Shown piece after piece: positions 1 through 64,000 of a stretch of 64,000 nucleotides of DNA. The first letter of the stretch is position 1; each line of letters starts with the position of its first letter. Source of the DNA: Candidatus Sumerlaeaceae bacterium (GTDB lineage Bacteria > Sumerlaeota > Sumerlaeia > Sumerlaeales > Sumerlaeaceae); assembly GCA_026418615.1 (NCBI GenBank), contig JAOAAY010000014.1, positions 192-64,191 on the forward strand, written 5' to 3'. Below the pieces are notes generated by a model. It did no database searches and had not been told where the DNA came from. It saw nothing but the letters and a program-made list of their open reading frames with translations. Made by a program: the position numbers and the translations under genes.

Positions 1-805
1 CCGCCTGTCGCGCGCGAAGTACCATGCACCGCATGTTTTCTATATCGCCATCTCCGAGGCGGTGAAGTCGGTGCTGGTGGCCGGCGGCGTGCCGGAACAT
101 CGCATCAGCATCGTACACAGCGGAGTGGATCCCAACCGATATGCTATGCGGACAACGGCGTCGCGCGACGAGAAGGCGGCGCGTTGGTTCGGTGCAGGTG
201 CAGGCACCTATCTGATTGCGAATGTTGCGGCTTTGACGGACCACAAGGATCAGGCCACGCTGCTCAGGGCGGCGGCCATGCTGCGCCTGCGGATGCCTGA
301 GTTTCGTCTTGTCATCGCGGGCAGCGGCGAATTGGAGGGCCCGCTGCGCGCGCTGCAGGCGCAACTCGGTCTTGAATCGCATGTGGAGTTTCTCGGGCAT
401 CTGCCGGATCTCGCGCCGCTGTATCGGGCCGCGGATTTGTTTGTCATGTCGTCGCATCTCGAGGGGCTTTGCACTTCGATCCTCGATGCGATGGCGGCCG
501 GGGTGCCGGTTGTCGCAACGCGGGCCGGGGGAATCCCGGAGATCGTGCGCGACGGCCTCAACGGTCTGCTTGTGCCGGTGCGCGACCCCGAGGCGCTGGC
601 AGCCGCCATGGAAACCGCGCTGCGCAGCCCGATGCTGCGCGAAGTGTTGTCGCATGCCGGACGCCGGACGGTCGAAGAGGAGTTCAGCCACGACCGTATG
701 GTGGACGGCACGGTGGAGCAGTATAAGGCGATTCTGGCGAAATACCACCGTGCCCTTGCTGCCGGCCGGGCGATTGCAGGCGGTGCGGCGACGGCACTCG
801 GGTGA
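1..805 (+). CDS. Glycosyltransferase family 4 (5'-truncated)
   Basis: The reading frame is open from base 2, so the start lies upstream of the window; only the C-terminal half (about 267 residues) is visible. It has the second Rossmann domain of a GT-B, family 4 glycosyltransferase: an ISEAVK segment and a VHSGVD motif at the domain hinge, GSGELEG for nucleotide-sugar contact, and the E-x7-E type region SHLEGLCTSILDAMAAG followed by VVATRAGGIPEIV. Such enzymes transfer a sugar from an NDP donor to a lipid or glycan acceptor at the inner face of the membrane. The stop overlaps the GTG start of gmhB by four bases, and the next three genes make or use heptose, so a role in LPS core assembly is inferred. 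Donor and acceptor cannot be read from the sequence. Confidence 0.9.
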   Translation, partial: RLSRAKYHAPHVFYIAISEAVKSVLVAGGVPEHRISIVHSGVDPNRYAMRTTASRDEKAARWFGAGAGTYLIANVAALTDHKDQATLLRAAAMLRLRMPEFRLVIAGSGELEGPLRALQAQLGLESHVEFLGHLPDLAPLYRAADLFVMSSHLEGLCTSILDAMAAGVPVVATRAGGIPEIVRDGLNGLLVPVRDPEALAAAMETALRSPMLREVLSHAGRRTVEEEFSHDRMVDGTVEQYKAILAKYHRALAAGRAIAGGAATALG

Positions 806-1398
806 CACTGCGTCCCGCCATATTCTTTGACCGTGACGGCACGCTGAACGACGAGGTGGGATATCTGTGTCATCCGGACAATTTGCATTTGCTGCCCGGC
901 GCGGCGGAGGCAATCCGGCTTTGCAATGAGCAGGGGGTGTTAACAGTTTTGGTGACAAATCAGGCTGCGATTGCGCGCGGTCTGCTCACCGAGCCGTGTC
1001 TGGCTGAAATTCACGAGCGTTTGGGCGACTTGCTGGCTGCCGGCGGCGCGCACTTGGATGCGATTTACCACTGCCCGCATCATCCGGAGGCGGGTCTGCC
1101 GCCGTATCGCGTTGATTGCCGTTGTCGCAAGCCGCGTCCGGGCATGATCGAGGCGGCGTGCGGAGCCCTGCCCATTGATCTCGCGCGCAGTTGCGTCATC
1201 GGCGATAAATTGTCAGACATGGCGCTCGCTCGCGCTGTGGGGATCAGCGGGATTTTGGTCCGGACGGGTTACGGAGCGGACTCGCTTGCTCGTGCGGCGG
1301 GAGAAAACGCGCCGGACCATGTGGCCGACAATGTGCGCGCGGCGGTTGAATGGGCACTTGAACATGTCTGCAGGGCAGGCTTGCGTGCGCAGGCATGA
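802..1398 (+). CDS. gmhB: D-glycero-D-manno-heptose 1,7-bisphosphate 7-phosphatase
   Basis: A 198-residue HAD-superfamily phosphatase of the histidinol-phosphatase/GmhB type. The nucleophile motif FFDRDGT carries D10 and D12, the K and D motifs follow in RKPRPGM and GDKLSD, and the zinc loop of GmhB is visible as C91, H93, C106 and C108. The enzyme removes the C7 phosphate from heptose bisphosphate before nucleotide activation in ADP-heptose synthesis. The GTG start overlaps the upstream glycosyltransferase stop by four bases and its own stop overlaps the rfaE2 start as ATGA, indicating translational coupling. The order gmhB-rfaE2-heptosyltransferase strongly supports the call. An upstream sedoheptulose isomerase (gmhA) is not in the window. 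Confidence 0.93.
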   Translation: MTLRPAIFFDRDGTLNDEVGYLCHPDNLHLLPGAAEAIRLCNEQGVLTVLVTNQAAIARGLLTEPCLAEIHERLGDLLAAGGAHLDAIYHCPHHPEAGLPPYRVDCRCRKPRPGMIEAACGALPIDLARSCVIGDKLSDMALARAVGISGILVRTGYGADSLARAAGENAPDHVADNVRAAVEWALEHVCRAGLRAQA

Positions 1399-1892
1399 GC
1401 GAATCCGTTAAACTCCGAAAACTCCTCACGCTGGAGGAGGCCAAGGCCTTGCGCGAGCGCCTGCGTCGTGATGGCAAGGTGGTTGTGTTTGCCAATGGAA
1501 TCTTTGATGTGTTGCACGGCGGGCATGTGTCGTATCTGGCCGAGTCGCGGGCCATGGGCGATGTGCTTATTGTCGGGGTAAATTCCGACGAAAGCGAGCG
1601 CGCCCTGAAAGGACCCGGCCGCCCGATCTACCCCGAGCAGGAGCGGCTCGAACTGCTCGATGCCATCCGCTATGTGGATGCGCTTGTGGTTTTTCACGAG
1701 CACACCTGTGAGAATCTGCTGCGCGAGTTGAGGCCAGATATTCATGTGAAGGGCACCGACTACACGGTGGAAACCGTGCCGGAGCGCGAGGTGGCGCGGG
1801 AATTGGGCATCGAGACGCGCATCGCCGGTCCGCCCAAGGAAAACGCGTCGCGGGGTGTCATTGCCACGATTATCGAACGGTACGGCGGTTAG
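1395..1892 (+). CDS. rfaE2: D-glycero-beta-D-manno-heptose 1-phosphate adenylyltransferase
   Basis: This 165-residue protein corresponds to the C-terminal cytidylyltransferase-like half of HldE (RfaE domain II). The nucleotidyltransferase signature HGGH lies at residues 41-44 after VVFANGIFDVL, with GVNSDES and a C-terminal block resembling the ISTS-type loop (ENASRG). It joins ATP and heptose 1-phosphate to ADP-heptose. The kinase half is not fused and is not adjacent, so the organism probably uses the split arrangement seen in several phyla, with the kinase elsewhere. It overlaps gmhB by four bases and is followed 18 bases later by a heptosyltransferase. Confidence 0.93.
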   Translation: MSESVKLRKLLTLEEAKALRERLRRDGKVVVFANGIFDVLHGGHVSYLAESRAMGDVLIVGVNSDESERALKGPGRPIYPEQERLELLDAIRYVDALVVFHEHTCENLLRELRPDIHVKGTDYTVETVPEREVARELGIETRIAGPPKENASRGVIATIIERYGG

Positions 1893-1910
1893 CCCGTCCA
1901 CGGGCGAAGG

Positions 1911-2978
1911 ATGTCGGCAGTGGCGGGCAGGCCGCGAATCCTGATTGTGCGCCTCAGCGCTATCGGAGATGTCATCCATGCTTTGCCGGTGTTGGACGCT
2001 TTGCGTCGCGCGCTGCCCGAGGCGCATCTGGGATGGGCGGTTCATCCCGGGCCTGCCAACCTGCTCGAGGGTCATCCGCAGTTGGATGAAGTGGTGCTTG
2101 TGCCGCGGCGTGACTGGACCCCGGGCGGCCTGCTGCGGATCCGCCGTCTGCTGCGCGAGCATGGGCCTTGGGATGCAGCGGTGGATGTGCAGGGTCTGAC
2201 CAAGAGCGGACTGGTGGCCCTGCTGAGCGGCGCACGCCAACGAATCGGATTCGCCGGCCCGGCCAGCCGCGAGATCAACGCCTTGTTCATGAACTGTCGG
2301 GTGAGGCCGCGCGCACGAGCCGTCATTGATATGAATCTCGAGTTGCTGCGCCCGCTTGGAATCGAGCCGGGACCAGCGCGAGCCGTCTTGCATGAAAACG
2401 CGGAGGATATTGCTCATGTTTGTGAATGGGCGGCCGAAGCGCGGATTGGTCCGGGCAGCACTCTCCTCCTCGATGCATTCGCCGGCTGGGAGACCAAGGT
2501 GTGGCCGCGCGAGCGGTGGCTTGTGGTGGCGCGCGAGGCGGCGCGGCGTCACGGACTGCGTCCGCTGGTGGCGTATGGTCCTGGCGAACACGATTCTGCC
2601 GCGGCTCTGGCTGCAGAGATCTCCGCCCCGGGCTGCCAGCCGGTCTTGCCGCCACCGACGACCCTTCGTCAATATACGGCGATGGTCAGGCGGTATGTTG
2701 CAGCGGCCGTCGGCGGCGACACCGGGCCGATTCATCTGGCGGCGGCTTTGGGGGTGCCTACGGTCATGATGTTCGGGCCTTCGGATGCGCAGCGCAACGC
2801 CCCCGTTTTTGCGGACGCCCGGTTTGAGACCATTCAGGACCTCAGTCAGCCTTGCGCGGGGACTTTCGCGCGTCGCTGCCCGCATCATGCTCCGGGGCAT
2901 TGCATGGACGGAGTCACGGCGGAGGCGGTGGTGGCGGCGTTGGACCGCCTTTTGGGCGCCGACCGCACACATGCTTGA
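1911..2978 (+). CDS. Glycosyltransferase family 9 (LPS heptosyltransferase)
   Basis: A 355-residue GT9 protein of the ADP-heptose:LPS heptosyltransferase family. It begins with the family N-terminus RILIVRLSAIGDVIHALPV, in which the catalytic Asp follows Ile-Gly, and has the C-terminal donor-binding block GGDTGPIHLAAALGVP followed by MMFGPSD. These enzymes add heptose to the inner core of LPS on the cytoplasmic side of the inner membrane. It is the last gene of the heptose operon, 18 bases after rfaE2, and 123 bases separate it from rpmE. WaaC, WaaF and WaaQ classes cannot be told apart here, so no symbol is given. Confidence 0.9.
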   Translation: MSAVAGRPRILIVRLSAIGDVIHALPVLDALRRALPEAHLGWAVHPGPANLLEGHPQLDEVVLVPRRDWTPGGLLRIRRLLREHGPWDAAVDVQGLTKSGLVALLSGARQRIGFAGPASREINALFMNCRVRPRARAVIDMNLELLRPLGIEPGPARAVLHENAEDIAHVCEWAAEARIGPGSTLLLDAFAGWETKVWPRERWLVVAREAARRHGLRPLVAYGPGEHDSAAALAAEISAPGCQPVLPPPTTLRQYTAMVRRYVAAAVGGDTGPIHLAAALGVPTVMMFGPSDAQRNAPVFADARFETIQDLSQPCAGTFARRCPHHAPGHCMDGVTAEAVVAALDRLLGADRTHA

Positions 2979-3101
2979 AAGGGCTGGACATGAATTCAGG
3001 ACGGCTCCAAGGGTAGCCGTGATTTCGCGCAACAGAGGGTGCCGTACAAGCGGAGCCTTACGGCCCACTCGCCACGCCGGCACCAGAGGAGACACTGAGA
3101 G

Positions 3102-3350
3102 ATGAAAAAAGGAATCCACCCCGCGTACCGCCTTGCCACGGTCACTTGTGCCTGTGGGGCTACATTCAAGGTTCGGTCCACCAAGAAAGAGTATCGCCTC
3201 GAGATCTGCTCACAATGCCATCCGTTTTTCACCGGTCAGCAGCGCTTTGTGGACACGGCGGGCCGCGTGGAGAAGTTCCGCCAGCGCTACAGCAAAGCCA
3301 GCGGGGCAGCGGAGCCGAAAACGGCGGAGCCTGCAGGCGCCGAAGCCTGA
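3102..3350 (+). CDS. rpmE: 50S ribosomal protein L31 (zinc type)
   Basis: An 82-residue L31 with the N-terminus MKKGIHPAY and the four zinc ligands of the C+ form: C16 and C18 in CAC, and C36 and C39 in CSQC, followed by HPFFTG. It binds the central protuberance of the large subunit. The C-terminal tail after residue 66 is Ala/Glu-rich and longer than in Escherichia coli. Zinc-replete L31 is often paired with a cysteine-less paralogue under Zur control; no paralogue or recognisable Zur box is visible here. Confidence 0.97.
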
Positions 3351-3492
3351 TAACGAGCGTACGGGAGGGGTCGCCGGGTCTCGCCCGTCCGCGGCGTTTC
3401 GTTCCTCGTTTGGCGCGCCCCTTGCTCCACACCCTACCGAGGGCGGTCTGATCAAGTCGCCTCTCACTGCTGATTGTTTGGAGGCGTTGGCG

Positions 3493-4227
3493 ATGAGTTC
3501 TTGGGGTGACTCCCTGAAAACGATCCTCGCGGCTCTCGTGTTCGTCTGGGGGAGCAGTTTGGCTTTTGCCCAGACTTGGAGCGCGGGGTCCGTGTCGCGC
3601 GATGTGTGGTGGGTTGATGAGGACACTACGGTGTCTGCCTCCACTTCGCGCAAGGCCGATGTAACGAATTTGGATGAAACAACGGCGACTCAGCCCGCCG
3701 GCAAGGCCTCGGTGAAGGTGGAGTCGGCGGCTGCCAAGGAGACCCCGGCACCCACCCGCAAACCCGGTGAGGTGTCCGATTTGCTTACGGGTCGCAAATC
3801 GTCGGTGTCCGCCAAAACAGCGGATAAGACCCCAAAACCCTCGACACGCGCAACCGTAGCGCCCCGTCGTGGGGACGACGAGACGCCACGCGGCGGCAAT
3901 ACCCGCGACTGGGTGACCCGCTCGGGATCGGTCGTATCGGTCCAGCCCGCGACCGAAAGCAATAATTTGCAGGTCATTATCGAAACCGCCGACGGGTCTC
4001 TGGTCGAGGGATTGGTGTCTCCCCATATTCGGGTCCGGGTGCCGGATAAGGGGGCCCGGATCCGTATGCGCGGTCCGCGCGAAGGCATCGTGGAGGGAAC
4101 GGAAACCATCCGGGTTTTCGAATTGGAACGGTTGGGGCCTCGTACGCCCGCTCCGAATCCGCCGCCGGTGCGCCGCGCCGTCCGTCCGGTCCCTCCGCCT
4201 CCGCCGTATGGTTACCCGGTCTGGTAG
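3493..4227 (+). CDS. Exported low-complexity protein of unknown function
   Basis: This frame is open further upstream, but that part overlaps rpmE in another frame. The ATG at 3493 gives a good signal peptide (residues 1-26, ending AFA-Q) and has GGAG 10 bases upstream. The predicted product is 244 residues. After the signal come a Trp-containing segment (WWVDED), a Thr/Ser/Lys-rich region of about 90 residues, a short ordered part near residues 145-220 resembling a small beta domain, and a Pro-rich tail (PPPPPYGYPVW). I recognise no family. The Pro/Tyr-rich end is typical of envelope-associated proteins. Confidence 0.65.
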   Translation: MSSWGDSLKTILAALVFVWGSSLAFAQTWSAGSVSRDVWWVDEDTTVSASTSRKADVTNLDETTATQPAGKASVKVESAAAKETPAPTRKPGEVSDLLTGRKSSVSAKTADKTPKPSTRATVAPRRGDDETPRGGNTRDWVTRSGSVVSVQPATESNNLQVIIETADGSLVEGLVSPHIRVRVPDKGARIRMRGPREGIVEGTETIRVFELERLGPRTPAPNPPPVRRAVRPVPPPPPYGYPVW

Positions 4228-4282
4228 TCACCGCGCCGTTTCGCTTGCGTAAGCACTCCGGCGGCGCGCCTATGGCGCTCCG

Positions 4283-6175
4283 GTGAGAATGCCGACAACC
4301 ATCCTTTCGCGCGAGGGCCTTTCGGGTCAGATTGCCGACTTTGTCGCGGCGATGCTGTTCTTTGCCACGGTCTTTGTCTGTGCCCTGTTGCGGAGCCAGA
4401 CGGCCTTGCTGGCCGCCCTGCCGCCGGTGTTACTGGCCGTGGGCCTGCTGGTGCTGATATGGCGGCACTTTGCGGAGGGCCGGCCTCGAATCTACTGGGG
4501 CCACTACGACGCGGCGGTTGTTTTCCTGTTCATTTATGTGGCAGCCAATGTTTATTATAGCGAGATCATTTCCGTCACTTGGCGCGCGGCTTCGCTGTAC
4601 CTGCTGGCGTTTGCCGGCTTCTTTTTCGGCCGGTTGCTGTTTTACCGGCGCCTTCTCTGGTACGCGTTGGGATTGGTCATCACGCTGATCCTCGCTTTTG
4701 TCTGGGTTTGGATGCTGCGCCAGCGGCTGATGATGGCGGCGCGTCCGGACATGTTCTACGCCGATCGGTTGCTGGTGACGCTTCATGTGTTGGCGGTTTT
4801 CCTCGCGTTCTGGCTGGTCACCTTGCCGTTTCTGATTGTCCACAGACCGACCAACCTGATCGCTCTGATTTATGTGGCTGTGATTGTAGGCGGGTATACC
4901 TTTTACCTGATTGGGCAGTTGGGATGGCTTTTTGAAGGCACTTGGACCGCGGCGGCGGTGACTTCGCGCCATGACCGGCTTCAGATCATACAAACCGTGG
5001 CCGATATTGCGCGTCATTACCCGCTGACGGGCGGGGGACTGGGCACATTCCCCAATTTGTTCGAGGCTTACCGACCGTCGCCGCGCGTGCCTTACGGGGC
5101 AACTTTCAATTCGTACCTTTTCCTGTTGGCCGAGGCCGGGCTTGCCGGGTTGCTGCTCTACTTATACCCGCTGGTCATGTTTTCAGTGTATATTGTCCGG
5201 CATTGGGGCTTTTTTCTGAACCGCAAGTTGCGCATGGGCGTTCTGGCGCTGCTCAGTCTGACAATTTTGTGTCTGATCCAAGGGTTGCATGATCCGCACA
5301 TGCACTCGGTGCTGGCTTGGCTGTTGCTGTTCACGGCTTTTGGCACCCTGAGCAGTCTGGTGAACATCCGTGATCCGATGCGCATTTTCCCGCAGGCGTC
5401 TCCCGTCGCCGGCTTGGCACCCCGGGTGTCTGCTGAGGGGACGGAGCGGCCGTTCAAGCCGGGGCTCATTCGGCGCATGGGATTTGGTGGAACCGTGGAA
5501 CTGGCCGCGTATGCGGTTCTGGTGGTGGTCGTGCTGGCGGCGCAGTTGGCGCCTCATGTCGCGGCATCGCAAATCCGGCGGCGTCCGCAGGAGGAGGCGA
5601 CTTCGCCATCTTATGGTTTGCGCCTCGAGCGCACGATTGGCGTTTTCCCGTTTCTTCCGGAGGCTTGGGTCCGCTTGGCGAACTATTATCAAGACTCAGC
5701 GAAGGATTCGAACGATCTCGTGCTGCGTCTCCTGCCCAGGATTGAGGAGGCCTACCAGAGAGCCATCCGGCTTGATCCGTTTGAGCCGAGAACCTACGAG
5801 CGGCTTGCGCTGCTCTACTCGAGCACGAACAGCCCCATGAAGGCGCGGGAGACCTTGGCGCGCGGGGTGCGTGCCAACCCCAATGATCTCGTGCTGCGTT
5901 TGATGCTCGTGCGGGAGTTGCAGAAAGCCGGCAGTCTGGCGTTGGCGACTTGGCACATGCAGCAGGCTCTACATCGGATCGCGCCGGCGCAGGCCGAGTT
6001 GTACCTTCAATTGGCCGAGTTGTATGAGCAGCGCGGGCTGACGGCCGTGGCTGTGCGCCATTATCAGTATGCGCGACAGGTGCTGCCCGAGTCGGCGTTG
6101 TCGAGCCCTCAGGCGCGGCGGCTGCGCCAGCGGCTGGGATTGCCCGAGGTCGCCCAGAGTCGTGCGACTCTGTAA
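4283..6175 (+). CDS. O-antigen ligase/polymerase-like membrane protein with C-terminal TPRs
   Basis: A 630-residue polytopic protein. Residues 1-370 hold about ten hydrophobic segments and include the Wzy_C/WaaL-type loop: DRLQIIQ, the GGGLGTF turn and [16 protein letters not shown], then another membrane pair. A further hydrophobic segment lies near residue 410, and the remaining 200 residues are soluble with TPR-like helices ([13 protein letters not shown] and [15 protein letters not shown]). The family polymerises or ligates undecaprenyl-linked glycans on the periplasmic face; PglL-type O-oligosaccharyltransferases share the fold, so protein glycosylation is an alternative role. The start is GTG at 4283, with an ATG two codons later. 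A second member lies at 54836-56275. Confidence 0.85.
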
Positions 6176-6248
6176 CGGGGCGTCGGCGCCTGCTCAACTC
6201 GCCTGAATTGTGCCGGAATTCCCAATGTACAGGCATCCAGTCACCCAC

Positions 6249-6323
6249 TGGGGAGTCGCCAAGCGGTAAGGCACGGGTCTTTGGAACCCGCATACGAAGG
6301 TTCGAATCCTTCCTCCCCAGCCA
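6249..6323 (+). tRNA. tRNA-Gln (anticodon UUG)
   Basis: The acceptor stem TGGGGAG (6249-6255) pairs with CTCCCCA (6313-6319), followed by G discriminator and an encoded CCA. The anticodon stem CGGGT/ACCCG encloses the loop CTTTGGA with anticodon TTG at 6281-6283. The T arm contains GGTTCGAATCC. The D arm GCCAAGCGGTAAGGC is the standard glutamine form and the U1 start is a known glutamine identity feature. It lies 26 bases upstream of aroQ. Confidence 0.97.
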
Positions 6324-6348
6324 TCCCGACTTTGCGGCAGGGGGCGTC

Positions 6349-6813
6349 ATGCACAAGATACTGGTTGTCAACGGCCCGAATCTGAACCTTCTCGGGCAGC
6401 GCGAACCGGGCATTTATGGCAGTGTGACTCTGGCGGACATTGAGGCTGCCGTGCGGCGGCAAGCGGCGGCAATGAGTCTGGATGTGGATTTCTTCCAGAG
6501 CAACAGCGAGGGAGCGTTAATTGACCGCCTTCATGCGGCGCGGGGCGTGGCCGGCGCCATTATTCTCAACGCGGGTGGCTACACTCACACCAGCGTGGCC
6601 CTGCGCGACGCGATTGCGGCGATCGCGCCGCTGCCCGTCATCGAGTTGCACATCTCCAATATCTTTGGACGGACTGAGTCGTTTCGTCACGAGAGCCTGA
6701 TTGCGCCGGTCTGCGCCGGGATCGTGGCGGGCTTTGGGCCGGCCGGCTACTGCCTTGCTCTGCATGCGGCCAAGACCCTGCTGGACCCGCCGGTTTTCGG
6801 CGCGTCGCACTGA
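6349..6813 (+). CDS. aroQ: 3-dehydroquinate dehydratase, type II
   Basis: At 154 residues this has the normal length for dodecameric type II dehydroquinase, which converts 3-dehydroquinate to 3-dehydroshikimate in the shikimate pathway. The N-terminal [18 protein letters not shown] carries R18 and the catalytic Tyr23 on the flexible lid. N74 lies in [11 protein letters not shown], the catalytic His101 in ELHISN, and the substrate Arg in ESFRHES. The frame extends upstream through the tRNA gene, so the ATG at 6349 is the only reasonable start. No other aromatic-pathway gene is adjacent. Confidence 0.96.
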
Positions 6814-30803: not shown

Positions 30804-31853
30804 CTACAAGGCCCGCAACTTGGCTGCCAGTTCCGACGCTGTCAGTCGGTCGGTGAATTGCTGGAGAGGCTGGCCGGCACTGTTGTAGACATTGATGGTT
30901 CCGGCCCGGAAAACACCGAGTCGGTAAGCCATGTCCGTATTGCGCTGAAAGTCGAATCGGACGAGAACGAAATTGGTGGCCAGAATGCTTGATACCACGG
31001 GATCAGTAAAGACTTGCTCGTCGTAGTAGCGGGAGGTCGCGCTCTCTGGCGCCGCAAAGAACACGAAGATTTTTCGGCCAGTTTGGGAGGCTAACTGCTG
31101 GCCGCGCGCGATGTCGTCCACCCAACTCAGTTGGACGGGTGCCGATGGAGACAGCCCCGGCAGGCTCGGGGTACCGACGGCTGCGGTCAGCGGTGGGGCT
31201 GACGGTGTGGGGGCTGCGAGGCTGGTCCCGGGCGATCCGGGGATCCAGATGGCCGTTTCAGGAAGCGGCGTGGTGGTAAACCGCACCGCGTCGGCGTAGA
31301 CTTGACCAAAATTTTTAGTGTCCAGCGGCTGCACGGTTTGATCCACTGAGAGAACAACACCCTGTCCCTCGCCGGCCTTAAACTCGAAATCGCCAAGCAG
31401 AACCCACTTGTTGGCGTTAGCGATGCCGGAAACGCTCCCCCAGCCATCCTGCTGCACGGATTTGGTGGTTTCCCCGCCGGCGTGCTTGATGGTGTAGTAA
31501 ACCGGCGCCGCATTGGCGGCGCGAGGCCAAGTGGTGTAAACATAGTAGCGACCGGCTTCTGTGAACACAGGCGAGAACGAAACCGCCGCCGCCTCATTGC
31601 GTCGGTTCGCGCCCGTCGGGTCGACGAACGCGAATTTGCGAGATCCACAGGTGCCTTGGGGCGTGAGGTCAATGGCACTGCTTTTGGCCGTCTGGGGGGG
31701 CACCTGACTATCAACCCAGTTACCAGCCAGCTCCTTGTACCACTGGTTGTTTTTTCCCTCGGCGCGAGACTCGATGATGATGTCCGCGGCAGGCACATCC
31801 GACGCCCCCAACAAGCAGCCGAGTATGACAGCAAGCCCCAAGCCTCGTTTCAT
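30804..31853 (-). CDS. Secreted golvesin-like and thioredoxin-fold protein
   Basis: The ATG at 31853 yields a signal peptide (ending PAA-D) and a 349-residue product. Residues about 70-205 resemble the golvesin C-terminal domain found in Bacteroidetes xanthan lyases and secreted hydrolases: AAAVSFSPVFTEAGRYYVY, KHAGGETTKSVQQDGWG, WVLLGDFEFKAGEGQGVVL and VYADAVRF. A Pro/Ala-rich linker (about 210-245) leads to a thioredoxin-like fold of about 100 residues (GRKIFVFFAAPES, FVLVRFDFQ, GTINVYNSAGQ) without a CxxC motif, so redox activity is unlikely. It is convergent with thyX. The partnership of these two domains is unusual. Confidence 0.75.
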   Translation of the reverse strand: MKRGLGLAVILGCLLGASDVPAADIIIESRAEGKNNQWYKELAGNWVDSQVPPQTAKSSAIDLTPQGTCGSRKFAFVDPTGANRRNEAAAVSFSPVFTEAGRYYVYTTWPRAANAAPVYYTIKHAGGETTKSVQQDGWGSVSGIANANKWVLLGDFEFKAGEGQGVVLSVDQTVQPLDTKNFGQVYADAVRFTTTPLPETAIWIPGSPGTSLAAPTPSAPPLTAAVGTPSLPGLSPSAPVQLSWVDDIARGQQLASQTGRKIFVFFAAPESATSRYYDEQVFTDPVVSSILATNFVLVRFDFQRNTDMAYRLGVFRAGTINVYNSAGQPLQQFTDRLTASELAAKLRAL

Positions 31854-32045
31854 GGCGACGAAGTCTCCCTTTACGAATGAGCACGCCCTAGAATATGTTC
31901 CCATTCGCGGAAGAGACACATAAGAAGAGGTGTCGGGCAACAAAAAATCCTGCCTTGCATTGTGTTCTGCCCGGACTTGCGGTACTGGCAGTCCGATGAG
32001 GGGCGCATTCGCTTGACATGCCTCGGAGCGGTTCATTGATAGCGG

Positions 32046-32063
32046 GCGATTTTGTAAAATCGC
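32046..32063. promoter_or_regulatory. Perfect 18-base palindromic operator candidate
   Basis: GCGATTTTGTAAAATCGC has eight-base perfect arms around a two-base centre. The loop would be too short for an RNA hairpin, so a dimeric repressor site is more likely. It ends ten bases before the ATG of the ABC ATPase at 32073. A TTGACA at 32013-32018 could be the -35 element, but no good -10 follows. Confidence 0.5.
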
Positions 32064-32072
32064 GGGGACTCC

Positions 32073-33071
32073 ATGATCGTTGTTGAAACGAATAAACTGA
32101 GCAAGATTTACACCCACGATTTCATTGATGTGGAGCACGGGCGGTTGCGCTTCAATTTCATGCGCCGCACGGTGGCTCTGGCTGATCTCGACTTGCAGGT
32201 TGGCAAAGGAGAGATCGTAGGCTTGCTCGGACCCAACGGGGCTGGCAAGTCGACCACGATCAAGATTCTGATGGGCATTCTCTTTCCCAGCAGCGGTTCT
32301 GCCAAATTGATGGGCCGGCCTCTGGGCGACAAGGCGGTCAAGGCCAAGATCGGCTTTCTTCCCGAGAATCCCTTCTTTTACGACTACCTCAAGGGCGAGG
32401 AGTTTCTGGATTATTATGGCCAACTCTACGGCATGTCCAAGGCCGATCGGCGCAAGCGGATCCGGGAATTATTTGACTATGTGGGGCTCCCCGATCATGC
32501 GCCCAACCTTCCCCTGAAGGGTTACTCGAAAGGCATGTTGCAACGCATCGGTTTGGCCCAAGCGATCTTGAACGATCCGGAAGTGGTCGTGTTGGATGAG
32601 CCGCAGTCGGGGCTCGACCCCCTCGGGCGCAAGGAGATACGGGACATCATCCTGTCACTTAAGGATCGCGGCAAGACGGTGTTTTTCTCGTCGCATGTGT
32701 TGTCGGATGCCGAGTTGATCTGCGACCGGGTGGCGATCCTCAACAAGGGGCGGCTCGTGGCTCAAGGCGAACTGGGGCATCTGCTCAGTTCGAAAATCAA
32801 AGACTACGAAGTCATTGTGACGGGAATGCGCAAGGAATCGGTGGAAGCGCTTCGGCCGCATGCGATCAAGTGCATCGAGCGCGACGCGGATGTGCTGTTC
32901 ATCTTTGAGAAGGAGGATGATGTGCGGGAGGTTTTGCGCCGCGTGATTGACGAAAACGCCCGGCTGGTTTCGGTGACGCCGCGGCGCGACACCCTCGAGG
33001 AATATTTCATCCGCGAGGTGACGCGCGGGCCGGGTGCGGCGGAGACCGGTGCGCAGGGAGGTGCTGCCTGA
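32073..33071 (+). CDS. ABC transporter ATPase
   Basis: A 332-residue ATPase of the ABC-2 exporter class. Walker A GPNGAGKST, signature YSKGMLQRIGLAQA, Walker B VVVLDEPQSGLDP and the switch His in SSHVLSD are intact. The C-terminal 100 residues are the regulatory domain common in CcmA-type exporters. The stop overlaps the permease start by one base (TGATG). A 16-residue insertion near the N-terminus (HDFIDVEHGRLRFNF) precedes the first core strand and is atypical. The substrate is unknown; the operon continues with a permease and a TPR-like protein. Confidence 0.92.
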   Translation: MIVVETNKLSKIYTHDFIDVEHGRLRFNFMRRTVALADLDLQVGKGEIVGLLGPNGAGKSTTIKILMGILFPSSGSAKLMGRPLGDKAVKAKIGFLPENPFFYDYLKGEEFLDYYGQLYGMSKADRRKRIRELFDYVGLPDHAPNLPLKGYSKGMLQRIGLAQAILNDPEVVVLDEPQSGLDPLGRKEIRDIILSLKDRGKTVFFSSHVLSDAELICDRVAILNKGRLVAQGELGHLLSSKIKDYEVIVTGMRKESVEALRPHAIKCIERDADVLFIFEKEDDVREVLRRVIDENARLVSVTPRRDTLEEYFIREVTRGPGAAETGAQGGAA

Positions 33072-42315: not shown

Positions 42316-43134
42316 ATGGGTCCAGATTTCAGGGGTGTTGATTTTCCCGGGGCTGCCGGCCCTGCCGTCGGCCGTGTCCGGGAAGAGGGCGAAGGTGCGC
42401 CCAAGCGACTGTTTCTTGCCGTCCTGTTCTGCGCCCACGCGATGGGTCTTGGGTTATTCTGTATAGGATTGTGGCTGGTTCAGCCGCGTTTGGCTTCGAT
42501 CCATCCGTATGCCTCCCATGCTCTCTTGATCGGGGCCTGCGCGGCCATCGCGGCCTTTAGCTCTGGGTACACTGCATTATGTTTGGCCGTATGGCTGAAA
42601 CGACCTGTGCCGCTGGCCGACAGGGCTTTGCGCTGCTTTGGAAGGTCCCTGCCCGTGGTGGCCGCCGTGTCGCCTTGGTTTGGGGTGTCTCCGGAGCGCG
42701 TTCGCCGGAGCCTGACCTCCATCGAGGAGCATCTGGCGTGTCTGCCTCCGCGCCAGGGATGTCGTGGGCGGATTATTTGCCTTGCTCCAGCAGACTTGCC
42801 GTCTGTCGCGGTGGAGCAAATCCGGTCGGTCGCGGCTGAATACGATACCGATTTTTTGCAGACGGCCAGTGCGACAGAGGCCCGTCAATTGATCCTGCAG
42901 GTCAGGCCGCTTGCCGTGGTGGCCGTTTGTTGTCCGCCGGATACGGTGCGTCGCATCCGCGAGTTGCAATATCGCGTGCCTTTGTTTACGGTAGGGCGCC
43001 GACCCAAATCCTGTGCGGTGTGCGAAGTGTCGCCCGATATTCATGAACTGATGACCGTGCTGGAAACCGTGCGGTCGCGCTACGAGGTAGCCGATGCAAC
43101 CTCTGAAGCCCAACCGGCGCGCCAACGGCACTGA
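42316..43134 (+). CDS. DUF116-like membrane protein lacking the cysteine cluster
   Basis: A 272-residue protein with two N-terminal helices (about 31-55 and 65-93) and a cytoplasmic domain. The C-terminal domain looks like DUF116: CRGRIICLAPADLP, EYDTDFLQTASATEARQLI and RPLAVVAVCCPPD, then VPLFTVGRRPKSCAVCEVS. In the family a CGRCK-like cysteine group normally follows the PHCLQ segment; that group is missing here, although C239 and C242 (CAVC) near the end remain. The function of DUF116 is unknown. It begins a plus-strand cluster that continues with a MoaD-like gene 21 bases downstream. The match is divergent and tentative. Confidence 0.55.
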   Translation: MGPDFRGVDFPGAAGPAVGRVREEGEGAPKRLFLAVLFCAHAMGLGLFCIGLWLVQPRLASIHPYASHALLIGACAAIAAFSSGYTALCLAVWLKRPVPLADRALRCFGRSLPVVAAVSPWFGVSPERVRRSLTSIEEHLACLPPRQGCRGRIICLAPADLPSVAVEQIRSVAAEYDTDFLQTASATEARQLILQVRPLAVVAVCCPPDTVRRIRELQYRVPLFTVGRRPKSCAVCEVSPDIHELMTVLETVRSRYEVADATSEAQPARQRH

Positions 43135-56376: not shown

Positions 56377-58038
56377 ATGAAAACACTGTTTCGTTCCGCA
56401 ATGCTTCTCGCCACCTGTTTAGGCCTTATCGCGCAGGCGTCTGCGGATGTCATTCACTTGCGCAATGGTCAGAAACAGGCGGGACTGATAATCGCCAACG
56501 ACCCGGCCCAGCCTACGGTGACCATCCGGACCAGCATGGGCGAACTGGCCATTCCCCGCTCGAAGGTGGCGCGGATCGAGGACGAGCCTGACGCGCTCGG
56601 CTACGGCCATATCGCTCAGGAATTCATCAATGCGGGCGATTACGAGCGCGCGGCGGCCGAACTGGCCGAAGGTCTGAAATTAGACAAAGATAATGCTGTC
56701 CTTCGGGAGAAGATGGCTGCCGTTGAGGCCGCCCGCGGGAAGGCGAAAGAGGCTGCCGCCCAGGAGGAGGCCCAGAACTTTGACAAAGTTCTGGCCGATG
56801 CGCAGGCGCTGGCGAAGGAAAAGAAGTTTGATGAGGCTATCAGGCTTTTGCGTACGGTGGATCCTGCGGGCGATTCCGCACGAAGCGTGCCCTACCGTCA
56901 GGTGGCCTCGCAGATCTACACGGAGTGGGGCATATCGCGGGCGGATCATCAGGATCCGGCGGCCGCTGTGGATCATTTGCAGATGGCCCTGCGGCTTGAT
57001 CCAAAAAACGAAACGGCCCGCCGCCAACTCGTTCGGGTTTGGGAGGGCAACCCCGCCAAACTCGATGAGGTGATCGCCTTTTACAAGGACAGCACCAAAC
57101 CGGAGGACCGCCTGCGGCTGGCCGATGCCTACTTTAGGCAGAAAAACTATGAGCAGGCCCTGCCCATTTACCTCGAATATTTTGGCCAGCCGGGCACGGC
57201 GGATCAGGTGACTTACGATCGTATCCGCCTGATGTTTGACATGCTGCACCGCCAGTATGCGGATCAGGGCAACTACGCGCGCGCCCTCGAAGTGTACAAG
57301 CAGTTCCTTGAGTTTTCTCCAGAGGAAAGCCAGTCGCCTTTGGCCCGGTACGAGTACATGCTCAGGCGGTCGCAGACGGATCTGACCGATCTCAACGCTC
57401 GGGCCGAACTGGCCCGGTTTGCCGAGGAACGCGGCATGGCCGAAACGGCGCGCGAGGAGTACCGCAATATCTTGGCGGTGAATCCGCGGCATGAGGCAGC
57501 GCTAGCCGGTCTGAAACGGTTTGCGGATGCCGACGCTCAAGACCTGCGCGACTTCTTTGCGCAGGGCGAGTATCTGCTGGTGCGTCAGAAGGCTCGCGAC
57601 ATCTCGGCCTCCTACAGCATGTTCCCGGACATTGTGAAGGAGGCCTCCGAACTCGATGCCAAGGCTGAGGTCGAGCAGCGCAAGGTGGCGAAAACCCAGC
57701 AGCAGCAAGCCGTGGCGCTGGCTCTGCGGGGTGATGACTATTACAATCAGGCCTTGGCGTATCTGTCGGCCTACACCAGTTCCGAGCGCGACCGGTCGGT
57801 ACGGGTCTTCTCGCCGAAAATCGAGGCGGCGAAAAACCTGCAGCGCGCGCTCTTCTCGTGGCGGCAAGCCCTGCAAATCTCGCCGGATTTAGGCGCTCCG
57901 ACCAGTTATGACCTTTACAACAAGATCGCCGATGCTCAGGCCAAATACATGGTGCTGACCAACCCCAATCCGCCCCGGTTGCCCTCGCGCGATTTGGACC
58001 GCATGAGGCGCGGTGCCGACTCGAAAGGCAGCAAGTAG
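56377..58038 (+). CDS. Exported TPR protein
   Basis: A 553-residue protein from the ATG at 56377 with a signal peptide (ends ASA-D). Just after it DVIHLRNGQKQAGLIIANDP and IPRSKVARIEDE resemble the short SH3-like or Sm-like beta module seen at the start of many exported TPR proteins. TPR-like repeats follow (YERAAAELAEGLKLDKDN; AVDHLQMALRLDPKNETARR; YARALEVYKQFLEFSPEE), and a helical tail is rich in Gln and Lys. It lies divergently from the O-antigen-type operon, so a link to envelope assembly is plausible but unproved. Confidence 0.78.
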   Translation: MKTLFRSAMLLATCLGLIAQASADVIHLRNGQKQAGLIIANDPAQPTVTIRTSMGELAIPRSKVARIEDEPDALGYGHIAQEFINAGDYERAAAELAEGLKLDKDNAVLREKMAAVEAARGKAKEAAAQEEAQNFDKVLADAQALAKEKKFDEAIRLLRTVDPAGDSARSVPYRQVASQIYTEWGISRADHQDPAAAVDHLQMALRLDPKNETARRQLVRVWEGNPAKLDEVIAFYKDSTKPEDRLRLADAYFRQKNYEQALPIYLEYFGQPGTADQVTYDRIRLMFDMLHRQYADQGNYARALEVYKQFLEFSPEESQSPLARYEYMLRRSQTDLTDLNARAELARFAEERGMAETAREEYRNILAVNPRHEAALAGLKRFADADAQDLRDFFAQGEYLLVRQKARDISASYSMFPDIVKEASELDAKAEVEQRKVAKTQQQQAVALALRGDDYYNQALAYLSAYTSSERDRSVRVFSPKIEAAKNLQRALFSWRQALQISPDLGAPTSYDLYNKIADAQAKYMVLTNPNPPRLPSRDLDRMRRGADSKGSK

Positions 58039-58062
58039 CCCGGGCGTCAGCACGGGCGCCTG

Positions 58063-59556
58063 TCAGGAGTCAATCTGCGCCCGTTGGAGTTTGCCGCTAA
58101 AGTCCACATAAATGCTTTTCCACTCGGTGAAGATGTCGAGCACCGTGTGGCAGGCTTCGCGGTGTCCGTTGCCGGTCGCCTTGACGCCGCCGAAGGGCAG
58201 TTGCACCTCGGCTCCAATCGTCGGTCCGTTGATATAGGTGATGCCGGCCTCGATGTCGCGCATGGCGCGGAAAGCGGCGTTCACATCCCGGGTGTAAATG
58301 GATGAACTGAGGCCGTAGATGGTGCCGTTGAGGACCGTGATGGCTTCGTCGAGGTCGCGCACTTTGATGACGCTCAAGACCGGGCCAAAGATTTCTTCCT
58401 GAGCGATGCGCATGTGGGGCTGCACGCCGGTGAAGATGGTTGGCTCGAAAAACCAGCCTTTGGCGTGGTCGCCCGAGGTCAGCGCCTTGCCGCCGAGCGC
58501 CAGCGTCGCCTTGTCCTCTTCACGGCCGATGACGACATATTGCTCGACGGTCCGTCGCTGAGACTCGCTTACCAGCGGGCCCATCTGAGTCTGTTCATCA
58601 AGCCCGTTGCCCACCCGCAAGGTCTTGGCGCGCTCAATCAGCATGGCGACAAACTGGTCGTGCACCTTCTCGTGGACGATGAGCCGGCTGGTGGCGGTGC
58701 ACCGCTGACCGGTCGTGCCGAAAGCGCCCCACAGGGCTCCCTCCAGAGCGAGATCAAGGTCTGCATCATCCATGACGATTTGCGCGTTTTTGCCTCCTAA
58801 TTCGAGGCTGATGCGTTTGAGCAGTTCGCCACCCCGGGCGGCGATCTTGCGTCCCACCTCGCTCGAACCTGTAAAAGAGATTACGGCCACATCGGGATGC
58901 TCGACGAGGGGGTTGCCGACGGCCGAGCCCGTGCCGCAGACGAGGTTGATGACCTTGGGCGGGACGCCGGCCTCGAGGAGAATTTCAACGAGTTTGACGG
59001 CTGTGGCCGGCGTGTCGGTGGCGGGTTTGAACACCACCGTGTTGCCGCACACGAGCGCCGGAAAAATTTTCCATGTCGGGATCGCCATGGGAAAGTTCCA
59101 AGGCGTGATCATGCCGCAAACGCCAACGGGCATGCGGACGCTCATGCCGAACTTGTTGGGAAACTCGCACGGAACCGTATCGCCAAACAGACGGCGTCCC
59201 TCGCCCGCGGCATAGTAGGCCGTATCAATGCCCTCCTGCACATCCCCGCGTGTCTCGGCAAGGATTTTGCCCATCTCGCGGGTCATCAGGCGGGCCAATT
59301 CCTCTTTGCGTTCGGTCAGGATGTCGCCCGCGCGTTTGATAATCTCCGCGCGCTTGGGCGCCGGCACGAGCCGCCATGACGCGTAGGCCTCCTTGGCGGC
59401 CGCAACGGCCTCCTTGACCTCTTCCGGTCCGCCGGCGGGAAACACCCCGATGACATCGGAGGTGTCAGCGGGATTCATGTTTTCAAATGTGCCGTTGGTG
59501 CCGGTCTCGACCCATTTGCCAGCGATGAAATTGCGGTAAACACACTTTTCGGCCAT
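58063..59556 (-). CDS. NAD(P)-dependent aldehyde dehydrogenase
   Basis: A 497-residue class-1-like ALDH from the ATG at 59556. Catalytic residues are present: Asn in [12 protein letters not shown], Glu in LELGGKNAQ and the nucleophilic Cys in TGQRCTATS, with the cofactor motif [11 protein letters not shown]. The end ([20 protein letters not shown], then GNGHREA and [13 protein letters not shown]) is like the alpha-ketoglutaric-semialdehyde/aminoadipic-type and related dehydrogenases, so the substrate is uncertain. It is a single gene, convergent with the TPR gene. Confidence 0.92.
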
Positions 59557-60006
59557 ACTCCTGCTCCTCGTGCCCCCGTCGTGAGGTGGTCTGTTTGCGG
59601 CATGAATCGTCGCCGGCACCCCGCGGGCCTTTCAACCCGATTCTTGCGCCGGAGGGTGCTGGCATCCGCGGCGTCGGCCGCTGCCCAAGGCACCTTCGCT
59701 GCTACTGCTGAGTGCGGCTGCCGGTGTTTATACCGAGTTCGAACTGGGCCGCAGGACAGGCCTGTTTGACATAAGGCGACGCTTGTCGGCGGGGTTCCGC
59801 GAGTAGTGCCCGATCGGGTTCGTGGGGGAATGTTGCTAAATTTGGACGCGGCTGAAGGGGAGCGAGGCAATCAGGCGTCAGAGGCCGGCCCCGGGCGGCA
59901 GCCTCGGGTTAGGGCTTGCAGGCGCGGGCAGTACATGGTGGCTAATTGCTCGAGTTCGGGTCGGACATGGTACGCGCTTGAGCCAGAAGCGAGGGGAGAC
60001 AGCGAC
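59557..60006. other. 450-base divergent intergenic region
   Basis: This separates the aldehyde dehydrogenase (minus) and the PH-domain gene (plus). It is GC-rich, with short open frames that look random. I see no tRNA, hairpin-plus-T terminator or clear promoter. Confidence 0.5.
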
Positions 60007-60519
60007 ATGTCGCAATTGACACAGCCGGCTCCGGCGCCGGCGGACAAGCCGGAAGAGGAAATCTGGCGAGGCAGGCCTTCGCTCCGTCTGCCGGGGCTGC
60101 ACTTGGGGTTGGCGGTTTTGGTGGTCGTTGCGGTGGACGCCGTTATCTGGCTGGTCGCCGGGTCGGCAGGGCTGTTGCCGCGTATGATACTCTATGCAGT
60201 GCTCCTGTCAGGGGTTGCTGTGCGTGGGCTTATTGCCCAGTGGTCTGAGTCCTATCGGTTATCTAACAAATATTTGTATGTCGAGCGGGGCATCCTGAAT
60301 CGGGTTACAGATCAGGTGGACATGCGCCGTTTCCGCGACCTGCGCGTCCGCAAGATGCTGATTCCTCGAATTGTCGGATGTGGCGATGTGGTCGTGATTT
60401 CGACGGATGTGACGCACAGCGAGCAGGCGCTGCGTGATGTGACCAATCCCGACCATGTCGCGTCCATGATCCGGCAAGTGGCCGAGTCGCGCCGCACTTC
60501 CATCGTGGATGTCGAGTGA
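60007..60519 (+). CDS. Membrane PH-domain (bPH2/DUF304) protein
   Basis: From the ATG at 60007 the product is 170 residues: a Pro-rich cytoplasmic start (PAPAPADKPEEEIWRGRPS), two helices (about 34-52 and 58-75), then a bPH2 domain (SESYRLSNKYLYVERGILN, VDMRRFRDLRVRK, GCGDVVVISTDVTHSE). This is the YdbS/YdbT-like architecture; such proteins are linked to membrane stress and antibiotic tolerance, without a known activity. The stop overlaps the isocitrate dehydrogenase start by four bases. Confidence 0.85.
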   Translation: MSQLTQPAPAPADKPEEEIWRGRPSLRLPGLHLGLAVLVVVAVDAVIWLVAGSAGLLPRMILYAVLLSGVAVRGLIAQWSESYRLSNKYLYVERGILNRVTDQVDMRRFRDLRVRKMLIPRIVGCGDVVVISTDVTHSEQALRDVTNPDHVASMIRQVAESRRTSIVDVE

Positions 60520-61583
60520 AAATACAGGCCGCGGAGCGGAGAGGGAACCCTGAGGTGACCGGAAAAAGACATGTCATTACGCTGATTCCCGGTGACGGGA
60601 TTGGGCCGGAAGTCGTGGGCGCTACGGTTCGCGTGGTGGAGGCTCTGGGGCTGGACATTGTCTGGGAGGAGGTCGAGGCCGGCGGCGATGTGGCCGTCAA
60701 GTATGGTTCCCCTGTGCCAGAGCATGTTTTCGCATCGGTGCGTAAGAACGGCGTGGCGTTGAAAGGCCCGATCACAACGCCTGTGGGGGCAGGCTTCCCG
60801 AGCGCCAATGTCACCATCCGCAAGAAACTTGGCCTCTACGCCAATGTACGGCCCGCGCGCAGCCTGCCGGCGATCAAGACACGGTTCGAAGGCGTGGACC
60901 TTGTGGTTGTGCGTGAGAATACAGAAGACCTTTATTCCGGTCTGGAACATATTGTGGTGCCCGGGGTGGTGGAGAGCCTCAAGATCATCACCGAGGAGGC
61001 ATCGTTGCGCGTGGGGCGCTTTGCGTTCGACTACGCCCGCCGCAACGGCCGGAAACTCGTGACCGCCGTCCACAAAGCCAACATCATGAAACTCTCTGAC
61101 GGACTGTTTCTCGAGTGCACCCGCCGGGCGTCCAAGGAGTATCCGGAGATCGAGTACCGCGAGATCATCGTGGACAATTTGTGCATGCAACTGGTGACGA
61201 ATCCCTGCCAGTTCGATGTGCTGCTTTTGGAGAATCTCTACGGCGACATCATCAGCGATTTGTGCGCCGGGCTGGTAGGCGGGCTAGGTGTGGTGCCGGC
61301 GGCAAACATCGGTCCGGACCTTGCCGTGTTCGAAGCGGTGCATGGCAGTGCGCCCGACATTGCTGGACGCGGGATCGCGAACCCGACCGCCGTCATGTTT
61401 TCCGCTGTCATGATGCTCCGTTATCTCGGCGAGACGGACGCCGCCGCCCGCATGGAGGCGGCCATCATTGGTGTGTTGGACGAAGGCAAAACGGTGACCC
61501 GCGACCTCGGCGGAACGGCGAGCACCAAGGAGTACGCCGACGCGGTGATCGCCCGCCTGAAGGATAGTCCGGGTTGTCACTAA
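60516..61583 (+). CDS. NAD-dependent isocitrate dehydrogenase
   Basis: A 355-residue member of the isocitrate/isopropylmalate dehydrogenase family, starting with GTG. ITLIPGDGIGPEVVGAT is the N-terminal motif. SANVTIRKKLGLYANVRPARS, RENTEDLYSGLEH, AVHKANIMKLSD and NLYGDIISDLCAGLVGG are typical of the short NAD-type (IDH3-like) isocitrate dehydrogenases. It oxidatively decarboxylates isocitrate in the TCA cycle. Isopropylmalate or homoisocitrate dehydrogenase are less likely because the S-x-N-x2-I-R and ENTEDLYSG residues match the isocitrate group. Confidence 0.87.
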   Translation: MKIQAAERRGNPEVTGKRHVITLIPGDGIGPEVVGATVRVVEALGLDIVWEEVEAGGDVAVKYGSPVPEHVFASVRKNGVALKGPITTPVGAGFPSANVTIRKKLGLYANVRPARSLPAIKTRFEGVDLVVVRENTEDLYSGLEHIVVPGVVESLKIITEEASLRVGRFAFDYARRNGRKLVTAVHKANIMKLSDGLFLECTRRASKEYPEIEYREIIVDNLCMQLVTNPCQFDVLLLENLYGDIISDLCAGLVGGLGVVPAANIGPDLAVFEAVHGSAPDIAGRGIANPTAVMFSAVMMLRYLGETDAAARMEAAIIGVLDEGKTVTRDLGGTASTKEYADAVIARLKDSPGCH

Positions 61584-61747
61584 CCGCTGCGTCCGTCCGC
61601 CCTCGTGCAACTGGGTGGTACGCTCTCGTACGACGGGTCGGCGCACGCTGTCACAATGAGACTGATCCTAATGATTTTACCCGCGGGCGTTTGGATGGCA
61701 CCGTTCTTGGTATCGCATCGAGGTATCATGCGTCGTAGAGGATGCCT

Positions 61748-63043
61748 ATGATGAGAGCGTGCTGGCGTCTGACGGTGTGCTTGGGGTTAGCGATCACAGT
61801 GTTGAGTGCGCTGCCGCTGGCTGCCCTGCCAGCAGGGGGCGCTGCTCAGCGCCAACCGGGCCGAAATGTGCGCCAATCGCGTGATTCAGGGAGCCGCCAG
61901 CGCGTTTTCGAAGAGCGCATGAGACGGCGCGCTGAGGCCGAAAAACGCGTCCAATCCGCCGGAGCGAAGGCTCGCGATCCACGCCGGCAGACTCCGGCGA
62001 GACGACGCCAGTTTGTTAATATGCCGTCCATCGCATCAGACCCTCAAACGACGCGTTTGCCCGTGCAAAGTAACGACCCCGCCACCAGGACCTCAGAGTC
62101 TGTCACAAGCATGACCGCCACGGTTACCACGACGACCTTGCTTGAGCCCGTGTCAACTCCAACAGGGGGGCTGGCCGCCGGGCCTATTCTTGGGCTCGTC
62201 CAGAGTCTGCCTCCGCAGACCCGTCGCACGGCGGTCGAAAAGTTGCGCGCCATGTCTGCCGAAGAACGCTTTCGCATGAGGCGGGACATCGAGTCAGCAC
62301 CGGAGGGGGAGCGGGCGGCACTCTTGATGCGCGCTCTGGGAATCGGGGGTACGCTTGCCCCCGACTGGACGAGCACCGTGGCGCAGTTGATGACCAGTGC
62401 CCATCCTGAGATGGCGCAATATTTGGCTGCGCCGAGGGGGACACCCTATGTGGTACAGGCGGACCATGCCCGGCCGCAACAATACCGAGCCTCAGAGAGC
62501 GGGCCGCTTCCCGAGGCGGGGCGGCAGGCACCGCCGTTTCATCTGATAACGCTGGAGGGCAAACCCGTCACCGCGGAGACTTTCCGGGGCCGGCCTCTTG
62601 TGCTCGAGTTTGGATCACTCACTTGCCCGGTGTTCCGTGCAAACATCGCCGCGATGAATCTGCTGGCCGACGCCGTTGGTGATCGGGCTGCCTTTCTGCT
62701 GGTGTACACGCTGGAGGCTCACCCGCAGGGCAGCGTGAGCCCGTATTCGGATGGAGAGTGGGTTCCGGATAAGAATTTTCAAGAAGGGGTGCTGAGGCGT
62801 CAGCCGAGCGACGCATCTGCGCGGATGGCGCTTGCCCGTGAAGCGGTCGAAAAGTTCGGCGTGCGGCTGCCGGTGGCCGTGGACTCGATGGACAACAAAA
62901 CTTGGGCAGCCTTTGGTTCGCGTGCCAACAGCGCCTTCGTGTTGGACTCGGCCGGCGTGATTGTGGCCGCGCAGGAATGGACAGATCCCGATGGGTTGCG
63001 CGCCGTGCTGGACCGCCTCATTCCGGCTGCCGATCGGCCGTAA
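61748..63043 (+). CDS. Exported iodothyronine-deiodinase-like thioredoxin-fold protein
   Basis: A 431-residue protein with a signal peptide; GAGG six bases upstream supports the ATG at 61748, though ATGs lie at 61742 and 61751. Residues about 30-90 are basic (Arg/Gln-rich), then come a Thr/Ser tract (TATVTTTT) and a helical region. The C-terminal 170 residues resemble type-I deiodinases: RPLVLEFGSLTCPVFRAN (deiodinases have GSCT-U-PPF), then LLVYTLEAHPQGS. Cys293 stands where the vertebrate enzymes have selenocysteine, and the earlier cysteine is Leu. A bacterial role in reductive dehalogenation or peroxide chemistry is possible; no iodine link is proved. Confidence 0.75.
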   Translation: MMRACWRLTVCLGLAITVLSALPLAALPAGGAAQRQPGRNVRQSRDSGSRQRVFEERMRRRAEAEKRVQSAGAKARDPRRQTPARRRQFVNMPSIASDPQTTRLPVQSNDPATRTSESVTSMTATVTTTTLLEPVSTPTGGLAAGPILGLVQSLPPQTRRTAVEKLRAMSAEERFRMRRDIESAPEGERAALLMRALGIGGTLAPDWTSTVAQLMTSAHPEMAQYLAAPRGTPYVVQADHARPQQYRASESGPLPEAGRQAPPFHLITLEGKPVTAETFRGRPLVLEFGSLTCPVFRANIAAMNLLADAVGDRAAFLLVYTLEAHPQGSVSPYSDGEWVPDKNFQEGVLRRQPSDASARMALAREAVEKFGVRLPVAVDSMDNKTWAAFGSRANSAFVLDSAGVIVAAQEWTDPDGLRAVLDRLIPAADRP

Positions 63044-63266
63044 AAGGTTAGTCTCCGGCACGGCCCTTCCGATTCCGATTGCGATGAATCTTCGCATGTT
63101 ACCGCGTATTTACCCGCAGGATCGGTGAAAGCGAGTCAGGGCGCCCAACCCAGCCTGGTATGCGTGCTGTTATGCTAATGGCCTTCTGCCAGAGAGCACC
63201 AGATTCCGGTTTCGGCTGTCGCCGAGGCGGTATGGCCGGAGATATCATATTAATAGGATTCCTGTC

Positions 63267-64000
63267 ATGACAAAGCCCCGTTTTTTTGCTGTGCTGGCTG
63301 CCGTGCTGGCGCTATTGATGGGTTCGCCCGTGCGGGCAGATAAACTGGACGACCTTGGCCTCGACCGCGATGGCAAACCGAAGGCTGTCGCGCCTGCCGC
63401 GGCCGACGGCTTGCGCGACCGACTGAATTTTTATTTCCGCGGCGCGGACGGCGGGATTGTGCGGATACAGAGGCCGAAATCGGCCGGGTTCGATGCTGCG
63501 GACAAGATGACGCGGATCACCGAACTGGCCCGCTGGGCTGTGGCTGGTCCGACAGCAGCCGAGCAGGCGCAGGGCCTGCGTCCCGTCTTCCCGGAAGGCA
63601 CCTCGCTTCAGGCCGTTCGCTCCGGGCGCGACGGAATTGTGGAGTTCCTCCTCGATGTGCCCGCACCGTTCGTCCTCAACCCCAACTGGGTGGAGAGCCA
63701 TCTCGACGCCATGGCGCGGGCGCTTTGGGGACCAATCCTCGACATGGATGTGCCCGGATTCCAGATCCTGATGCGCGATCCGGCGTCGGGCGAGTTCGTG
63801 CCAATCGAAAAGTTTCTCCCGCCTCTACAGGAGCCCGAGGCCCCCGTGCCGGATACGGCTGCGCCCGTAGTGCAGGAAAAGACAGGCACACAGCCTCCAG
63901 TCATGGAGCCGCAAAACAATTTTCCGGTTCCGGGCAGCAGTCGGCCCGTGGGCGCCCTGACGGGCAAGGCTGTGTACCTAAACCCCGGGCACGGCTGGGT
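63267..64000 (+). CDS. Probable secreted cell-wall hydrolase (3'-truncated)
   Basis: The ATG at 63267 (AGGATT upstream) starts a frame that runs off the end of the window without a stop (244 residues seen). The signal peptide ends VRA-D. Residues about 25-190 are mixed alpha/beta without a known motif; the segment FLLDVPAPFVLNPNWVES recalls the GerMN-like/spore-type modules, which is only suggestive. A Pro/Gln linker (about 200-230) is followed by GALTGKAVYLNPGHGW at the edge, which looks like the opening strand of an Amidase_3-type hydrolase (xxLDPGHGG). The call rests on that last stretch. Confidence 0.5.
   Translation, partial: MTKPRFFAVLAAVLALLMGSPVRADKLDDLGLDRDGKPKAVAPAAADGLRDRLNFYFRGADGGIVRIQRPKSAGFDAADKMTRITELARWAVAGPTAAEQAQGLRPVFPEGTSLQAVRSGRDGIVEFLLDVPAPFVLNPNWVESHLDAMARALWGPILDMDVPGFQILMRDPASGEFVPIEKFLPPLQEPEAPVPDTAAPVVQEKTGTQPPVMEPQNNFPVPGSSRPVGALTGKAVYLNPGHGW

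Follow-up and report, generated by a model that had tools for sequence, protein, structure and literature searches.

The window, that is, the whole 64,000-nt stretch of DNA analysed here, contains no copy of the tetranucleotide ACGT and two of AGCT. The first AGCT (31729..31732) lies inside a minus-strand open reading frame (ORF; 30804-32423) with Golvesin_C and thioredoxin-like domains, and the second (42559..42562) inside a weakly supported ORF (42316-43134) with a marginal DUF116 match. The sole tRNA gene of the window, tRNA-Gln(TTG) on the plus strand (6249..6323), is without either word, in contrast to the majority of the genome's tRNA genes. This exact recount agrees in every position with a first-pass annotation made from the letters alone, which had put the expectation at about 220 of each word; base composition gives ~222, and a second-order Markov model gives 152 for ACGT and 147 for AGCT. 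The palindromes that the annotation had called plentiful are close to expectation (TCGA 324, GATC 322, CATG 307, TGCA 191, GTAC 102, and GGCC 620), and its dozen or so CTAG number 14 (ratio 0.35). After CTAG, the next most depleted tetramers of the window are all above 0.64; thus, the loss of ACGT and AGCT, which both fall far under one tenth of the Markov expectation with no broad depletion of tetramers, is not an effect of composition. Specific palindromes are under-represented and similar words are not. ACCT is in fact enriched (1.27), which disfavours a single enzyme reading A-S-S-T and makes two specificities more likely.

The source assembly is an uncultured draft of 3.57 Mb in 124 contigs (92% complete, GC 0.62), from which stretches totalling 1.387 Mb were sampled; whole-genome figures derive from searches with the flanked words SACGTSSS and SAGCTSSS, each counted against a reversed control word. 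Genome-wide, SACGTSSS was found 9/8 times against 1556/1556 for its control and SAGCTSSS 7/12 times against 2401/2442, placing both flanked words at ~0.3-0.6% of the reversed controls. In the 1.387-Mb sample, there are 17 ACGT where 3342 are expected (0.005) and 34 AGCT where 3292 are expected (0.010). Two further motifs are depleted in the sample, RTCGAY (0.13-0.27 of expectation; 5 in the window) and CCWGG (0.32-0.35; 47 in the window), and their depletion suggests additional restriction systems. The purged words are exclusively 4-bp palindromes and degenerate palindromes, as is typical of restriction sites. Library sequence that was never trimmed from the assembly, the Illumina Nextera mosaic-end adapter, stands at the start or end of 14 sampled stretches (L193:1-19, L009:1-19, L010:1-19, L033:10809, and ten others); the assembly therefore rests at least partly on short reads.

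The avoidance reaches into codon choice, as the first-pass annotation had remarked for Thr-Trp, Asp-Val, Tyr-Val, and Glu-Leu, and its remarks hold over 381 genes (503 kb) defined by simple gene calls made for this analysis. Both words are missing whichever of the three reading phases is considered. Asp-Val is written with GAT in 512 of 513 cases, GAG precedes CTN once in 483, and the codons for Asp, Asn, His, and Tyr end in T in 1287 of 1290 cases before GTN, compared with about one third before other codons that start with G. Following an A-ending codon, the CGT share of Arg codons falls from 12.6% to 0.2% and the GCT share of Ala codons from 12.9% to 0.1%. The purge extends to the 115 kb outside called genes, where 3 ACGT and 7 AGCT remain of ~407 expected for each. 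Read with a standard codon-choice model, the odds ratios would correspond to selection with 2Nes of ~4 to 7 per site.

The sites that remain are concentrated in two kinds of DNA. The first is tRNA genes: 30 loci yielded 31 distinct genes, of which 21 have AGCT, in almost all cases at nucleotides 9-12 of the D-arm, and five have ACGT, while the kilobases that flank these genes are almost empty of both words. Eight of the 34 sampled AGCT lie within 1.2 kb of tRNA sequence, 0.09% of the 1.387-Mb sample (P ~6e-18). Since tRNA genes keep their sites, a site can be survived at a mild cost, so that a nuclease active on unprotected DNA is excluded; a solitary endonuclease against which the chromosome is protected by site absence alone is rejected on these tRNA counts. 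The other residual sites fall in foreign-looking DNA: three AGCT within the 2 kb of a HEC-01-like pair, a defence-like ATPase with a small partner (L018:8060-10047), that is probably a recent arrival; four sites in a contig-end fragment (L188:243-405); one at a CRISPR repeat-spacer junction (L039:122); and one at an adapter junction (L193:18). Short CRISPR arrays stand at contig starts (L039:8-360 and L198:21-200), and three spacer cores compared with viral contigs gave no match. A lower-GC stretch (L014:1-12500) encodes FtsH-like and other AAA ATPases and has frequent RTCGAY and CTAG, yet ACGT and AGCT stay rare, with 3 and 1 copies in 20 kb. A small mobile contig (L044:1-3796; 57% GC), with a phage-type integrase, a Dam-like methyltransferase, and an apparent truncated start of a C5 methyltransferase, has none of the 14 expected copies of each word, and its viral relatives are mostly normal.

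Seven genomes of the same family, representing six other genera, contain both words in ordinary numbers, with Markov ratios of 0.53-0.87 for ACGT and 0.70-1.08 for AGCT; since none is depleted to a comparable degree, the purge belongs to the present lineage. Low CTAG and mildly low CCWGG are common to the family, CCWGG being lower here than in the sampled relatives, and only the present genome, among the family genomes sampled, is strongly purged of ACGT, AGCT, and RTCGAY. Elsewhere in the domain, four distant genomes (G051, G060, G119, and G134) have ACGT at ~2% of the control word or less, which shows that the near-complete disappearance of a single 4-bp word, though rare, is not unique. The view that the avoidance is far stronger than usual is therefore borne out as regards its strength and has to be given up as regards its uniqueness, although no other genome in which both words were counted had lost ACGT and AGCT together. 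In G060, flanked TCGA is also absent genome-wide, besides the near-absent ACGT.

For AGCT, a candidate methyltransferase emerged from a six-frame search of the 92%-complete assembly with four Pfam families (PF00145, PF02384, PF01555, and PF02086). It is encoded on contig C30 (L022:5798-6844) and is of the m6A type, with a DPPY motif and CcrM as its nearest solved relative. Close homologues occur in three draft genomes, from Sumerlaeota (G147), Clostridia (G148), and Chitinophagales (G149), those of G147 and G149 being at 54-57%. In the sampled sequence, G147 has AGCT at 0.05 and ACGT at 0.90 of expectation, G149 has AGCT at 0.25 and ACGT at 0.72, and G148 shows no special avoidance (AGCT 0.70); in G147 and G149, AGCT is the most avoided of the reported palindromes. 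Because two of the three genomes with close homologues avoid AGCT, this post-hoc comparison of avoidance makes AGCT the likely target of the C30 enzyme. The neighbours of the C30-type enzyme differ in each homologue-bearing genome, as they would for an orphan. In the present genome, an ORF of 325 aa with a clear ribosome-binding site (L022:6869-7846) begins ~25 bp downstream and is a possible nuclease partner. Searches of phages, plasmids, viral contigs, PDB, Pfam, and NCBIfam returned no homologue of this ORF; Type II nucleases commonly have no recognisable homologues, which is no proof that the ORF has a nuclease role. The G+C content of the pair (0.55 and 0.53, against 0.62 for the genome) indicates that the two genes were probably acquired horizontally.

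For ACGT, the same search recognised neither a C5 methyltransferase (PF00145) nor a Type I/IIG methyltransferase (PF02384), and no ACGT protector was found among the four families in the 92%-complete assembly. Its only matches were one to PF01555, the C30 enzyme, and one, Dam-like and on a contig with a phage-type integrase, to the mobile-element PF02086; a motif scan for additional amino-methyltransferases over 39% of the genome gave a single hit, which by its motif is probably PrmC. The check for cognate methyltransferases proposed in the first-pass annotation thus yielded one m6A candidate for AGCT and, within these families, none for ACGT. The ACGT-purged genomes G119 and G060 served as a positive control, and both carry a C5 methyltransferase beside homologous 257-aa ORFs without a family match (G119, L060:554-2476; G060, L077 with L061), an arrangement typical of restriction-modification that makes the pair a good candidate for an ACGT system. 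This pair is absent from the present genome, G051, G104, G134, and G079. Two genomes of 99-100% completeness, G051 and G104, have ACGT at ~1% and ~3% of control, respectively, and contain no PF00145 or PF01555 methyltransferase. It follows for the present genome that the ACGT protector lies in the missing 8%, belongs to another family, or is of an unrecognised kind. A current DNA-cutting system directed at ACGT, and perhaps also at AGCT, that works without any recognised DNA methyltransferase family seems improbable; if it exists, G051 and G104 could have the same unrecognised system as the present genome. The unknown defence that the first-pass annotation had entertained is superfluous for AGCT and possible for ACGT, for which no enzyme was found.

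Among the causes that might produce such a pattern, the annotation had also named cytosine methylation and deamination at ACGT. If methylated cytosines at both words deaminated so fast that the words vanished, changes of the kind of Ser AGC to AGT and Leu CTG to TTG would be expected, and these are indeed commoner in the affected contexts. The reading phases decide the matter: where the words span codons as NNA|CGT (3 of 1247) and NNA|GCT (1 of 1761), C-to-T or G-to-A deamination would alter the amino acid and yet the purge is equally complete. Likewise, Thr ACG before T would be predicted to become ACA, whereas it mostly gives way to ACC (0.34 to 0.54) and ACT (0.08 to 0.27), with ACA rising from 0.13 to 0.19. 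Together with the lack of a recognisable C5 methyltransferase and the persistence of sites in tRNA genes, this renders a mutational bias extremely improbable and refutes deamination as the main cause; loss in all phases and between genes, with synonymous escape even where deamination would be non-synonymous, establishes selection against the words rather than mutation or composition, as does the exemption of tRNA genes. Deletion of both words by base-calling at modified bases or by assembly filtering could be imagined for an uncultured draft in 124 contigs, but it is refuted by the synonymous nature of the changes and the retention of the words in tRNA genes, and the adapters mark some of the data as short-read, so that its probability is negligible. 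Selection might instead act on transcripts, through a sequence-specific RNase toxin that cuts ACGU and AGCU and from which structured tRNAs escape. The tRNA exemption would suit such an agent, which is nonetheless very unlikely given that the purge is equal outside called genes and that ACGT, AGCT, and the other depleted motifs are all DNA palindromes.

The age of the pressure bears on a further reading, that the genome carries the fossil trace of restriction-modification systems that purged it and were recently lost. No cognate ACGT system was found in the assembly, and remnants of lost systems have been documented (PMC4687349). In a neutral-relaxation simulation of synonymous drift started from present-day genes, a drift of 0.002-0.003 substitutions per fourfold site roughly doubles the number of sites, drift of 0.01 raises it to ~4 times the present one, and drift of 0.1 to ~30 times. 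Sites would thus return so fast that, under the model, the pressure must still be acting or have ceased within the last ~0.003 synonymous substitutions per site. The fossil reading would require that the systems for both words disappeared together and very recently, and it is accordingly improbable.

Restriction by long-lived Type II restriction-modification systems with imperfect self-protection is the most probable cause of the purge and the best fit of the annotation's three suggestions, with a nuclease as the agent that we infer. The host would have been long exposed to Type II enzymes with AGCT and ACGT as targets, RTCGAY and CCWGG probably being cut as well; imperfect methylation of its own sites would leave a small risk of chromosome breakage per site. 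In the time of roughly one synonymous substitution per site, selection of 2Nes ~4-7 per site would then have cleared nearly all sites through synonymous and intergenic changes and spared those held by stronger constraint, as in tRNA genes, or carried by DNA of recent acquisition. Clearing thousands of sites would take approximately one synonymous substitution per site, a long time for a restriction system. With two 4-bp words at ~1% or less of expectation in a 3.6-Mb genome, restriction could hardly reshape a chromosome much further, and the price of word removal was borne one codon at a time. Through the exempt tRNA genes, the cost per site can be bracketed, and the simulation dates the pressure. 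Avoidance may also serve as a predictor of enzyme specificity in uncultured genomes, here AGCT for the C30 methyltransferase family and ACGT for the G119/G060 pair.

HpyCH4IV-type restriction-modification is specific for ACGT and shares that word with the purge described here, but no homologue was identified in the present genome. Known AGCT methyltransferases include orphan archaeal m4C enzymes (PMC10609329) and M.Mma5219II-like enzymes (PMC6329791). They recognise the same word as is purged here and differ in being m4C enzymes, whereas the C30 enzyme has a DPPY motif and the m6A methylase CcrM as its best solved relative. Rusinov et al. (2015; PMC4687349) surveyed how host genomes avoid the palindromic sites of Type II enzymes and counted a site as avoided when its ratio was below ~0.78. 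The likeness to those cases lies in restriction-like palindromes that are under-represented in one lineage while its relatives are normal; the differences are that the ACGT enzyme was not found in the present genome and that two 4-bp words here stand at ~0.005 and 0.01. The view of the purge as an extreme member of a known phenomenon, restriction-driven word avoidance (PMC4687349), is well supported.
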